A stretch of DNA of 33,558 nt from a virus. This document shows positions 1-28,381 of this stretch, piece by piece (the first letter of the stretch is position 1; every line of letters starts with the position of its first letter). The notes beneath the pieces are model-generated. The model saw only the letters and a program-made list of their open reading frames with translations, had not been told where the DNA came from and did no database searches. The stretch spans positions 1 to 33,558 of IMG/VR virus record IMGVR_UViG_3300022669_000008. The stretch is one strand, 5' to 3'. The position numbers and the translations under genes were made by a program.

Positions 1-148
1 CATGGTTTAAACATTTGAGTTTCCTTGGGTTAGTTTTTTAGTAGAAGCGAGCTCTTGGGATTTACATGGTTTAAACATTTGAATTTCCTGGTGTTGGATT
101 TTTGGGCAGGCTAGAGCTTGGAAGTTATTTGATTTTCCTGGTTTTAGG
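1..148. repeat. 64-base tandem repeat, left-end copies
   Basis: Positions 1-46 are the last 46 bases of a 64-base unit. 47-110 is a full unit, with its second half diverged. 111-148 is a degenerate continuation that again carries ATTTGATTTTCCTGG, compare 13-27 and 77-91. Landmarks of the unit are GAGCTC, GTTTAAAC and ATTTGARTTTCCT. The array continues from the right end of the window (33461-33558), so the contig was opened inside it. The leftward frame of this DNA is partly coding (see the 53-residue ORF at 7-168), but a 64-base period does not preserve a reading frame. Confidence 0.85.
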
Positions 149-22196: not shown

Positions 22197-22230
22197 AGCG
22201 TGTAGCTCCTTACTATGTTTTACGCCCGAT

Positions 22231-22261
22231 TTGGCCCCTGCAAGCAGGTTGGTTCGGCCAA
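22231..22261 (-). promoter_or_regulatory. Long hairpin in the scaffold leader
   Basis: TTGGCC (22231-22236) pairs with GGCCAA (22256-22261). Inside, CCTGC and GCAGG pair across a two-base loop, leaving a one-sided seven-base bulge (leftward GAACCAA). No T run follows, so it is not a terminator. It lies about 35 bases before the scaffold start and could set RNA stability, processing or scaffold/capsid synthesis ratio. Confidence 0.6.
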
Positions 22262-22653: not shown

Positions 22654-22953
22654 TTAATATTTGTAATCAAAGGCTTGTCTTGGATACCCAAGATTGCCTG
22701 ATTTAAAAGGCTTTACTTCTGAAAACCCTTCCCCACAAGGCACGTCAATCTTTTTTGGAGATTTTTCGTGTCCCATGACTTTCTTATCCATACCCTTAGG
22801 CATGTACCGTTCGTTTTTCATCTTCGCGTCTGCTTTTGACATCCCACGAGACTCATCTCTTCGAGACTTGTAAGATTGAGACTTAGAGCTCTCTTTCCCA
22901 CGTCTCATTCCGAGACTCTCATCTAAACGGTCGTTATATCCCTGTTTCTTCAC
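22654..22953 (-). CDS. Small basic phage protein (GTG start)
   Basis: 99 residues, rich in Lys, Arg, Ser and Met and with little predicted structure (SKSQSYKSRRDESRGMSKAD). A more ordered end follows (GFSEVKPFKSGNLGYPRQAF). GTG at 22953 is the start, supported by GGAGG six bases before it. The gene overlaps the end of the portal gene by 20 bases. Its charge suggests nucleic-acid or scaffold contact, but no family function is known. Confidence 0.65.
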   Translation of the reverse strand: MKKQGYNDRLDESLGMRRGKESSKSQSYKSRRDESRGMSKADAKMKNERYMPKGMDKKVMGHEKSPKKIDVPCGEGFSEVKPFKSGNLGYPRQAFDYKY

Positions 22954-25024
22954 CGGATACCTCCACGTTGGTTTGTTCTAGTTCCATACCTGGCTGTCCA
23001 GGCATAGGTTGTTGCTGCATAGGAGAGGACATTCTTTCTCCTTCCGCAGAAATCATTACGTCGTCTGCTTTTACCTCTTTCTCTTTCTGAGCATTCGTTT
23101 CTTCCATTAGACGTATGATTGAGAGGTATTTAAGTAGACGGTCGTCGTCCATTGAATGAAGCTCCTTCATCGCTTTTACGCGGCTAAGAGTTGCATCAGA
23201 GCGGTCTTGTACTGCTTTGGATGCTCTTTCATCCTCAAGACCCATGTTGGCGACGGCTCTTGTAAATCTTTCCTTGGACAAAGCAACGTCTGATATAGCT
23301 TTTGCTTGAGCCATTTGTCTCTGGGAGTCGACAAGCTGCTCTTGTAGTTGTGACTGCTGTTGAGATTGTTTCGCTTGCGCTTTCTCCATAGCTGCCAGTT
23401 CTTTGATATATTCTGTTTTGCCTTGAATAGGAGCGGCTTTTGCCAGCATTTCTCCAGTGACAGGAGCTCCAAGCTGCTTGAGGTCCACAAGTTGACGGAA
23501 GTACATCTGCTTTTGAGTATCGGTAAGCATTCCCTCCGTCACGCTAACGTCATACTTTGTAAAGTCTCTGTTGTAGAATTGCTGAGTCGGCTCTTCATTA
23601 ATGATTCTTCTGACCTTCTCGGGAGACCATGTTTGAATAAGCTTTAATGCCTTTTGTGAGATTGCCTTTTGTGCAAAGCGTAGATTGTCAAAGACATCTT
23701 GAATGTTAACTAATGCTGCACCTTGACGAAGCATCATCATGATTCCAGACTCTTGGGCATTGTCTGAAATACCGAAAGAAGCGTCATTAACCCCTACTAT
23801 TTCCATCATGTCCCTGTCGAAGAGCTCTTGAAGTTGGAACATGGAGGGAGGAATCTGCGCTGGAGGGATTTTTTCGAGTGCGTTAGGAGGAGCATCCTCT
23901 CTCTTCCAGATTACCTTTCCTTGACTCGTTTGAAATAGCGAACGAGGGTTAATGACGCTGTTTTCATTCGCAATCCAACCAGAATTTATCTGAGAATCGA
24001 GCAAATCAATCATCTGAGAGCGACGACGATTAGCTTCGCGTTGAGGGTCTCTCATACATCTGATTAGGGACTGCATTTTGAGGCCCCACTGGTCCGATTC
24101 TGGTTCCCAAATGCCTACAAAAGGTACAAAAGGGTACTCATCAAGCCCATAGGGGTTCTCGTCTGTCTTCATGACAACATCATTTACGATGATATGACGC
24201 TCAATGTAGCGCTTAGGTCGCTCTACAATCTTTAAATTGTCATGAATAGACAGCATTAGTTCTTGTCTGTCTTTGGGAACGTCGAATTCCATGTATTCGC
24301 CCGTTTCCATATCTACAATCATGGGCACGTTGCGCCACTTTTGTAGGTAAAATTCATTGAAGGCCATCAAGTCTTGGCCATTTGGCTGTCTTTGGTATGG
24401 AAGCCACGTAAACTTATCGTCTCTCTCCCAACCGACCTTGTAGAGGTCCCAAACCTCCTGTTCCATCCCTGGTAAAAGAGAGGCTACTTGTTCAGGACCT
24501 AGGTACTTTCTGCGCATAATGTATCCGCAGTCAGACAAATCCAATTTGGAGAAATATGGGTCTGTGATAAATCCGTTATACGGGTCTCTTCCGAAGCGAA
24601 CGTCACCATTGATGGGGTCATCTCGGTAATCCATCCAGATAGACATAAGATTCCAGCCAGTTTTGAGAGCTCCCCCAAAAGAATCAGAAATAGTTCTGTA
24701 TCCCTCTCCATAATTCATGGAGTAGAGAAGGAGTTGGCTCAGCTGGTCGGCTGTCTCTTGGTCGGAATTTTCTATCGGTGTAACTACGGAGGAAAGACGG
24801 TGCTTACGCTGGTAACCCGTAATCATGTTGATGTTTCGACGGACGCGATTGAACACAAAAGCGTTTCTTCCTTCCTGGAAGAGCTGCCTTTTTTCTTGTT
24901 CATCCCACTGGTCGCCGAGGTAGAAACGAAGGTCTCTTTCCGCTTCAGGATAAAAAGCATCCCAAGCGTAATAGGCTTCGTTATAGAACTCGTCAAAGTC
25001 GCGAATTATTGATTGGTCTGTCAT
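22934..25024 (-). CDS. Portal protein, P22-like
   Basis: 696 residues from the ATG at 25024 (a GTG at 25033 is also in frame). The N-terminus (YYAWDAFYPEAERDLRFYLG, then GDQWDEQEKR) and RRNINMITGYQRKHRLSSVV are characteristic of the P22-type portal family. KTGWNLMSIWMDYRDD and DPYFSKLDLSDCGYIMRRKY follow, and the C-terminal 200 residues are a Gln-rich coiled coil, as in portals with a long barrel. The portal is the dodecameric DNA gate that binds the terminase. No strong Shine-Dalgarno is visible, and the leader is the structured element at 25024-25162, so start-codon access may be regulated. Confidence 0.88.
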   Translation of the reverse strand: MTDQSIIRDFDEFYNEAYYAWDAFYPEAERDLRFYLGDQWDEQEKRQLFQEGRNAFVFNRVRRNINMITGYQRKHRLSSVVTPIENSDQETADQLSQLLLYSMNYGEGYRTISDSFGGALKTGWNLMSIWMDYRDDPINGDVRFGRDPYNGFITDPYFSKLDLSDCGYIMRRKYLGPEQVASLLPGMEQEVWDLYKVGWERDDKFTWLPYQRQPNGQDLMAFNEFYLQKWRNVPMIVDMETGEYMEFDVPKDRQELMLSIHDNLKIVERPKRYIERHIIVNDVVMKTDENPYGLDEYPFVPFVGIWEPESDQWGLKMQSLIRCMRDPQREANRRRSQMIDLLDSQINSGWIANENSVINPRSLFQTSQGKVIWKREDAPPNALEKIPPAQIPPSMFQLQELFDRDMMEIVGVNDASFGISDNAQESGIMMMLRQGAALVNIQDVFDNLRFAQKAISQKALKLIQTWSPEKVRRIINEEPTQQFYNRDFTKYDVSVTEGMLTDTQKQMYFRQLVDLKQLGAPVTGEMLAKAAPIQGKTEYIKELAAMEKAQAKQSQQQSQLQEQLVDSQRQMAQAKAISDVALSKERFTRAVANMGLEDERASKAVQDRSDATLSRVKAMKELHSMDDDRLLKYLSIIRLMEETNAQKEKEVKADDVMISAEGERMSSPMQQQPMPGQPGMELEQTNVEVSGEETGI

Positions 25025-25162
25025 CGCACCCACATACAGGTTTTTTTTTATCTTTCCCCGTATGGAAAGGTGCGAGGCCGTTGATACGGCAACGAACGGG
25101 ATAGCTAGTCCCTACCTCGCGTGTAGCTCTATTTTTTTAGCACTCTAGTTGGTTCAGTGCTA
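25024..25162 (-). promoter_or_regulatory. Structured, possibly switching leader RNA of the portal gene
   Basis: Reading leftward: TAGCAC/GTGCTA closes a 13-base loop at 25138-25162. A three-way junction follows: GCGAGG (25115-25120) with CCTCGC (25072-25077), enclosing GGGA-CTAGCTA-TCCC (25098-25112) and GCCGT-ATCA-ACGGC (25077-25090). Then comes CTTTCC-ATACGG-GGAAAG (25052-25069) and an A-rich linker. TCGCACC (25069-25075), part of the junction closing stem, is also perfectly complementary to GGTGCGA (25024-25030) at the portal start codon, so the two pairings exclude each other. The loop ATACGG can pair with CCGTAT in the second hairpin. This looks like a translational switch or packaging-related element. 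It is not a tRNA: there is no D-arm and no seven-base T-loop. Confidence 0.6.
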
Positions 25163-25707: not shown

Positions 25708-26964
25708 TTAATTCCTTTTTATGTAATACGCTCGCTCTATGCTTTCTGCTTCTTCTTCAGACATTCTTTTGCCTCTGATTTCAAAGAAATGGGTGTAAAG
25801 CGCATACCTTTCAGCATCTTTCGTATGGTCGTGCTGTTTTACGGGTTTATCTTCCCCTCTTTGGCTTGCTTTACTATCCCAAACATAATTTGTATATTCT
25901 TTAATTGTCTCGACGCAATTTGAACATATTTTATACGTTCCATTAGTGAGTAGTTGTCCCTGGAATCGGATTCCTGGGAGAACGTCGTTGGTGGCATCTC
26001 GAATATGTTGTACATCGTTCCGTCGAAGTTCTTGCTTAAACGACGCAGCTGAAGGGTCAATATAGATGGCCTCCACATGGTATCCATCAATAAATTCGAT
26101 GAGGTCCTTTGAATACTCATAATCACTCTTTTGTTTTAATGTTTGCTTACTGTCATAGACGTATTCTTTTTCCAGCCACATATTTGGATAAGCACTAGGG
26201 TTATAACCAATCATGACGAATACGCAAGGGTTGGTAGTACCGTAATCGACCCCTACTATGTAGTAGTTGGCTGGACTTGTTGGCATAGGGATGACATTGA
26301 TGTCTTCATCAAAGAAGTCATAGACGGACCCTTCAGCCATAACCCACTTTCCTTCGATGTATCTTTTGTACCAAAGTCCTTGATACTCTTTTTTAAGTTC
26401 ATCTTTGTATTCTTCGGAAAGCGATGGGTTATCATCGATATTGAAGCTAAAGACTTTACAATTAAGCTCTTCTTCTCTATCAATGAGGTCTGTTTTAACC
26501 CAGTGGAACGGCGAATCTGGGTTAGTCGATGCAAATAAGGCTGCCTTAGGTATCGAAAGCCTAGAAAGTAGCATCTTGCAAAAGTTCTCTGGAAGGAGTG
26601 TAAGTTCATCGATAAGCGCACCAGCAAACTCAGACCCTCGTATTTTCGCTTCTGCTCTATCATCGTTAGCTCCTATAACGTACATGGTTCTGTCGAACAT
26701 TTTGACCTCACCCTTTCCTATGGAGTACTTAACGGCATCGCCTACCAAGTCCTGGAGCGGGTTGATTATGTTTCTCTTAATGGTTTTGTCCGTACGACCG
26801 CATATCACAAGAGGGCCCGGCGGACCATTCCTACAAAACTCAAGCCATCTAAGAAGCGCAATAAAAGACTTACCTGCGCGAACTGGACCCTCAAATATGT
26901 TAATACGAGCGTCTGAGTCCTGAAATGAGTTTATCTGCTTGTCGCTTAATGAACTAATCTGCAT
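25708..26964 (-). CDS. terL: Terminase large subunit (packaging ATPase-nuclease)
   Basis: 418 residues. It cuts concatemeric DNA and pumps it into the prohead through the portal. ATPase motifs: Walker A GPVRAGKS (residues 26-33), Walker B ALIDE (116-120, catalytic E120) and coupling motif STNPD (146-150). The RNase H-like nuclease has D240 in GVDYGTTN, D303 in IDPSAAS and D383 in HDHTKDAERYAL, the usual metal-binding trio. Size and motifs fit the Terminase_6 / PBSX-like group. The start overlaps the small gene before it by 11 bases and lacks a strong ribosome site, so translation may be coupled. Confidence 0.93.
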   Translation of the reverse strand: MQISSLSDKQINSFQDSDARINIFEGPVRAGKSFIALLRWLEFCRNGPPGPLVICGRTDKTIKRNIINPLQDLVGDAVKYSIGKGEVKMFDRTMYVIGANDDRAEAKIRGSEFAGALIDELTLLPENFCKMLLSRLSIPKAALFASTNPDSPFHWVKTDLIDREEELNCKVFSFNIDDNPSLSEEYKDELKKEYQGLWYKRYIEGKWVMAEGSVYDFFDEDINVIPMPTSPANYYIVGVDYGTTNPCVFVMIGYNPSAYPNMWLEKEYVYDSKQTLKQKSDYEYSKDLIEFIDGYHVEAIYIDPSAASFKQELRRNDVQHIRDATNDVLPGIRFQGQLLTNGTYKICSNCVETIKEYTNYVWDSKASQRGEDKPVKQHDHTKDAERYALYTHFFEIRGKRMSEEEAESIERAYYIKRN

Positions 26965-28347: not shown

Positions 28348-28381
28348 ATTTCCCTCATTGTTGGTTCAGGGATTAATAAAA

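Follow-up and report, generated by a model that had tools for sequence, protein, structure and literature searches.

A conserved two-state RNA leader upstream of the portal gene in an uncultured tailed-phage family, probably a translational switch

Introduction

The packaging RNA (pRNA) of phage phi29 is a three-way junction with loop-loop pairing, and is associated with the portal. Translational riboswitches have a compact domain with a conserved loop and kissing loops, and one strand can belong either to that domain or to a helix covering the start region, so that an on/off logic is expected. In phage T4, RNA structure lies between the Shine-Dalgarno (SD) sequence and the ATG of genes 25 and 38, as one hairpin with a spacing of 22-27 nt, and the operators of gp32 and gp43 are described in the same excerpted account as gene-product binding sites made of simple hairpins or a pseudoknot (PMC3014915).

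The leader reported here comes from a 33.6-kb viral record of an uncultured tailed-phage family; the whole of this stretch is referred to below as the window. Two alternative folds can be drawn for it. Fold A is a three-way junction of helices P1, P2 and P3, together with a hairpin, P4, and a 6-bp kissing interaction between the loops of P3 and P4 (L3:L4). Fold B breaks P1: the P1 3′ strand (TCGCACC) pairs with GGTGCGA over the start codon, forming P5, and P6 arises between the L4 strand and a second L3-like copy in the AU-rich linker.

Judged by this architecture, the leader appears to work like a translational riboswitch. It has a covarying structured domain in a 5′ leader and a mutually exclusive platform that overlaps the domain (P5 covaries, and P1 is lost once the start strand is present), and it is the P1 3′ strand that alternates between the domain and the start-region helix. 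Unlike described translational riboswitches, it falls in no Rfam class, would control phage structural genes rather than metabolism, and has a second coordinated exchange, that of the L4 strand between L3 and the L3 copy in the linker. The three-way junction, the loop-loop pairing and the association with the portal are shared with phi29 pRNA; however, the leader has no Rfam homology, lies ahead of the portal gene, where it pairs with the start codon, and is dispensable across relatives. As far as the excerpted account of the T4 gene 25 and 38 sites goes (PMC3014915), they resemble the leader in belonging to phage late genes, in being structure-bridged and in their patchy occurrence among related phages, but here the spacing is about 95 nt, and the structure comprises a junction and a kissing interaction and has two mutually exclusive folds. 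The gp32 and gp43 operators are, like the leader, phage mRNA structures at a translation start that control a virion or replication protein, and a protein trigger is possible for the leader too; the leader exchanges two states, whereas none such is described for these operators in the same excerpts (PMC3014915).

At the gathering score, Rfam 15 finds no family in the whole window, and permissive thresholds give only sub-threshold chance matches for the leaders of the window and of two homologues (L128, L140). A DNA search of the isolated phages in INPHARED, whose portal relatives are about 20-26% identical, found no related leader, and the literature searched holds no description of such a portal leader and no riboswitch-like control of tailed-phage capsid or portal genes. 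The leader is best described as a new family of a known kind of RNA, with an unusual double strand exchange.

Results

On the minus strand of the window, two small ORFs separate the gene for the terminase large subunit from the leader; the portal gene comes next and, further on, the major head protein gene (Table 1). The portal product belongs to the PHROG 156 portal family (E=2e-74), and its profile matches solved portal structures (best 8jov, E=7e-21); the structural operon of the phage normally begins with the portal gene. No terminator was found near the leader, and a -10-like sequence is not enriched in the region upstream of hairpin P0. The P0 motif is present at the equivalent site in many relatives, with or without the switch.

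Table 1. Positions in the window of the leader elements and flanking genes.
Feature	Position	Strand	Remarks
Terminase large subunit	25708-26964	minus	
P0 upstream hairpin AGCACT-GAACCAACT-AGAGTGCT, GAACCA loop motif	25139-25161	minus	seen in folding
Leader (P0 in addition)	25022-25125	minus	
TACAC + GCGAGG, P1 5′ strand	25115-25125	minus	GCGAGG itself at 25115-25120
P2 hairpin GGGA-CTAGCTA-TCCC	25098-25112	minus	covariation z=6.8
P3 hairpin CGTTG-CCGTAT-CAACG	25079-25094	minus	covariation z=15.0; loop L3 = CCGTAT at 25084-25089
CCTCGC, P1 3′ strand	25072-25077	minus	common to P1 and P5
TCGCACC, P5 5′ strand, start-sequestering helix of fold B	25069-25075	minus	score 603 vs permuted 470 +/- 17
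P4 hairpin TTTCC-ATACGG-GGAAA	25053-25068	minus	covariation z=7.4; loop L4 at 25058-25063
CCTGTATG, P6 3′ strand, second L3-like copy in linker	25033-25040	minus	L4:linker covariation z=5.8; present in minimum-energy fold
GGTGCGA, P5 3′ strand	25024-25030	minus	covers bases just before the start codon and the A of ATG
Portal protein gene	22934-25024	minus	ATG start 25022-25024; ORF also open from GTG at 25033

Hairpin loops starting with GAACCA precede several genes of the window (25150-25155, 22250-22255, 366-371 and 28362-28367, minus strand), and many relatives without the switch have them ahead of the portal too; they are possibly a family-wide regulatory hairpin. The word TACACGC, with five copies against 1.7 expected, occurs beside GAACCA motifs or start codons (22198-22204, 340-346 and 25119-25125 on the minus strand, 887-893 on the plus strand). 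A near-exact direct repeat, GGAAA(T/C)TCAAATGTTTAAACCATG, lies close to the end of the record (window 1-120, minus strand).

Searches based on the portal yielded about 100 distinct related loci. A covariance model built from 23 leaders, a search that a sequence-only reading of the window had proposed for the region upstream of related portals, gave 37 matches in 94 sources (E 3e-19 to 0.0024). Two more leaders, L140 and L145, were found among contigs fetched by DNA pattern, and precede the same divergent portal type; when sequence away from portals was scanned, pattern matches that the model did not confirm were rejected as chance. The leader is thus present in about three dozen phages of the uncultured family and in two Chlamydiota genomes.

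The leader is a conserved structured RNA. In 35 hand-segmented homologues, each strand was scored with its own partner and with permuted partners; none of 20,000 permutations was as good as the true pairing for P1-P4, L3:L4, P5 or P6 (z about 6-15; 8.8 for P1, 10.7 for L3:L4, the others in Table 1), in tests that ignore kinship among the phages. The four stems that the sequence-only reading had placed before the portal gene can all be located on the minus strand, and where that reading had named an absence of covariation in relatives as grounds for rejection, all of these pairings covary. In the P1-P3 junction, 92.8% of cells are paired, 12 of 15 pairs have double changes, and the covariation score is 0.471 as against 0.170 when shuffled, a signal abolished by sliding the register. 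Across homologues, P1-P4 contain 27 G-U cells and 4 A-C cells, and the element therefore acts as coding-strand RNA.

With P3 drawn as in Table 1, and not as CCGT/ACGG, the entire 6-nt loop CCGTAT faces the entire 6-nt P4 loop ATACGG. Across homologues this L3/L4 pair takes the forms CCGTAT:ATACGG, CCGCTA:TAGCGG, CTACCA:TGGTAG, CCACCA:TGGTGG, CTATGA:TCATAG, CCAAAA:TTTTGG and CCGATA:TATCGG. P1 and P3 (6+5 bp) run alongside P4 and L3:L4 (5+6 bp), 11 bp in both cases, so that an intramolecular kiss fits the geometry. Of the two loop pairings put forward in the sequence-only reading, this one stands; the other, between TAGCT in the P2 loop and AGCTA just upstream (25124-25128 area), was rejected, with z=0.2 and a AGCTACAC-like sequence also present before portals that lack the structure. 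Nor did covariation among the 35 homologues reveal any pairing of the P2 loop with L3.

The P2 loop, L2, is palindromic: TAGCTA in the window, mostly TGATCA, also TAATTA (AGCT, GATC and AATT cores), and elsewhere a 4-nt palindrome. Its self-complementarity was matched by 12 of 20,000 permutations. Such a loop would allow a kissing homodimer and could equally reflect a binding site; the homodimer idea is kept as a lead, because independent changes in L2 are few.

The perfect complementarity of TCGCACC and GGTGCGA at the portal start, which the sequence-only reading had pointed out, is confirmed, the final A of the latter being the A of ATG. P5 has changed repeatedly with its pairing kept, as in TCGCATCC:GGATGCGA, TCTCATCC:GGATGAGA, TCTCTTCC:GGAAGAGA, TCGCAACTT:AAGTTGCGA and CCCGCACCTT:AAGGTGCGGG. 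Some changes in the trinucleotide common to P1 and P5 run through all three competing strands: GCG/CGC/GCG has become GAG/CTC/GAG in L010 and L015, and separately in L018, and GCA/TGC/GCA in L023. Such changes in separate lineages are the best answer to the relatedness that the permutation tests ignore. Since both P5 and P6 covary, the exchanges from P1 to P5 and from L3:L4 to P6 are both under selection. On this comparative evidence, both folds are evolutionarily maintained, mutually exclusive pairings at the portal start codon, as had been suspected from the window by itself. P5 is weak in L069, L107, L118 and L126, and absent in L088, whose fold A stays intact (L088:1876-2000).

The 161-nt leader region folds at -47.7 kcal/mol (z = -3.68), below all 200 shuffles, a thermodynamic check that the sequence-only reading had also proposed. 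For the RNA through P4 alone, the probability of P1 is above 0.5 in 34 of 35 homologues (median about 0.99); with the start region added, it is below 0.5 in 33 of 35 and about zero in the window. In the minimum-energy folds of 33 of 35 homologues, the partner of the start strand is the P1 3′ strand. In the window, fold B lies at least about 10 kcal/mol below fold A in energies that leave out the kissing loop, which the folding programs used ignore; L3:L4 taken as a duplex would be worth roughly -2 to -10 kcal/mol, and after allowing for it fold B is still lower. With so large an advantage for fold B, fold A can matter only if a strong trigger acts or if it is kinetically trapped. In these folding models, fold A would arise early, as a kinetic product, and give way later to fold B as the ground state, unless fold A is held in place.

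Each of 19 phage records tested has exactly one leader copy. It directly precedes the portal start, save where another gene has been inserted, and there it directly precedes the inserted sequence. A small, winged-helix-like gene lies between leader and portal in L057:1704-1996 and L098:1690-1990, with the P5 strand kept at the start codon of the inserted gene; the leader therefore serves whichever start codon follows. An apparent HNH-type gene is found on the opposite strand just before the portal in L022:4280-4990, L126:1060-1990 and L131 (upstream of 5001), and in the first two of these it comes between leader and portal.

On a portal tree of 73 rows, leader presence needs 12 state changes, at least 8 of them forced by supported branches, as against 23 in shuffles. 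Apparent leader remnants, consisting of P1 strands or GGGATGCGATGG only, lie upstream of the portal in L067 (1920-2000), L074 and L097, and would represent apparent decay of the element. These state changes and remnants indicate an old element that has often been lost and that the portal itself can do without. It is absent from the distant portal group L162-L177.

Of 234 Chlamydiota genomes, 11 contain the portal family, and two of these 11 also have the leader (E=1.6e-14 and 1.5e-11); in a third genome (G105), a match to the leader model (E=0.005) has no leader pattern and looks like chance. The two leaders precede truncated portals (G178:C1:19126-19526, L201 and L204; G176:C53:2698-2999, L202). 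The G178 copy lies on a 125-kb chromosomal contig, with ung, dapA and purB among the chromosomal genes around it. It consists of the leader and the first ~98 portal codons, at which point an apparent IS3-type transposase gene seems to cut it off. The sequences suggest that both are tailed-phage remnants in Chlamydiota. A broad genome scan found a single relative, likewise in a Chlamydiae MAG. Chlamydiota are the likely host of the phage family, the phylum-level search having covered Chlamydiota genomes.

Discussion

The leader is very probably a real, previously uncatalogued gene switch. The comparative and folding evidence points to a riboswitch-like translational switch that probably acts in cis on whichever gene opens the structural operon, as a rule that of the portal, with fold A as the on state and fold B as the off state. 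Fold A (P1, P2, P3, P4 and the L3:L4 kiss) would form first during transcription, because all its parts are transcribed before the linker and start region, and would leave GGTGCG-ATG free, making initiation possible. The emerging linker and start region would then invade: GGT would pair with the unpaired ACC beside P1 as a toehold, the CGC pairing of P5 would displace P1, and the L3 copy in the linker would take the L4 strand from L3. The outcome would be fold B, predicted to be the ground state, which would sequester the start codon and SD-like bases. A trigger of some kind presumably exists, and portal output may be set by a stabiliser of fold A (a small molecule, a protein or an L2-L2 kissing dimer) or by the lifetime of fold A. 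It is possible, if doubtful, that the leader represents a new ligand- or protein-sensing riboswitch class, perhaps acting as an L2 kissing homodimer, that times the start of virion assembly in environmental Chlamydiota phages.

The position of the SD sequence bears on the nearest alternative, a split ribosome-binding site with the sign reversed: fold A would hide a GCGAGG SD (off), and fold B would free it and bridge it to a normal distance from the ATG, with P2, P3 and P5/P6 looped out (on). The sequence-only reading had seen no clear SD, and this holds beside the ATG of the window, where the hybrid is weak (-3.0 kcal/mol), but not for the P1 5′ strand, which is a better SD (-6.5 kcal/mol) and corresponds to that of relatives without the RNA. 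There the same TACACGCGAGG serves as SD, 5-9 nt before the ATG, so that the RNA looks inserted between SD and ATG. Fold B leaves roughly 8 unpaired bases outside helices between GCGAGG and ATG, and structure-bridged SDs are documented, in the excerpted account, for T4 genes 25 and 38 (PMC3014915). However, the SD would lie about 95 nt away across three hairpins, far beyond the T4 spacing, and the A of ATG is itself paired in fold B. Moreover, the 35 leaders divide into 19 with a good SD in the P1 5′ strand and 16 in which that strand is a poor SD (weaker than -4 kcal/mol), for example GCGACG, GCGTAG and GCGCGG; two of the 16, L080 and L100, have a strong SD beside the ATG. Given this division, the split site ranks second to a switch with fold A on, and is unlikely.

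The other functions considered for the leader are rated lower. An RNA-processing or stability element, in the form of an RNase cleavage site or a protective 5′ structure, would suit an intercistronic, one-stranded position between the terminase and portal cistrons, with the P0 hairpin upstream and an AU-rich linker; it would leave the covarying start-codon pairing and the partner exchanges P1/P5 and L3:L4/P6 unexplained, and is improbable. Rated lower still is a trans-acting structural RNA like the phi29 packaging RNA, in which L3, L4 and the palindromic L2 would kiss intermolecularly at the portal. In its favor are the interlocking loops of a three-way junction next to the portal gene and an L2 whose self-complementarity has been kept through changes, but Rfam gives no match of any kind, many close relatives lack the leader, L3:L4 fits one molecule with its two 11-bp stacks, and a packaging RNA has no need of a covarying P5. 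Least probable of all is a DNA feature (a packaging recognition site or cruciform), an alternative that the sequence-only reading had raised from the location between terminase and portal genes: the excess of G-U over A-C cells is expected for coding-strand RNA only, pairing is kept though the sequence is poorly conserved, and the leader also stands before non-portal genes and is lacking in many relatives whose packaging is presumably normal.

For the cis-acting switch favored here, both folds of a bistable RNA are independently backed by compensatory evolution, three-strand cases included, which makes the mechanism directly testable. As a natural case of two coordinated strand exchanges (P1 to P5, L3:L4 to P6), the leader would be unusual. 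If this reading is true, the phages of this family would exert RNA-level control over the start of virion assembly.
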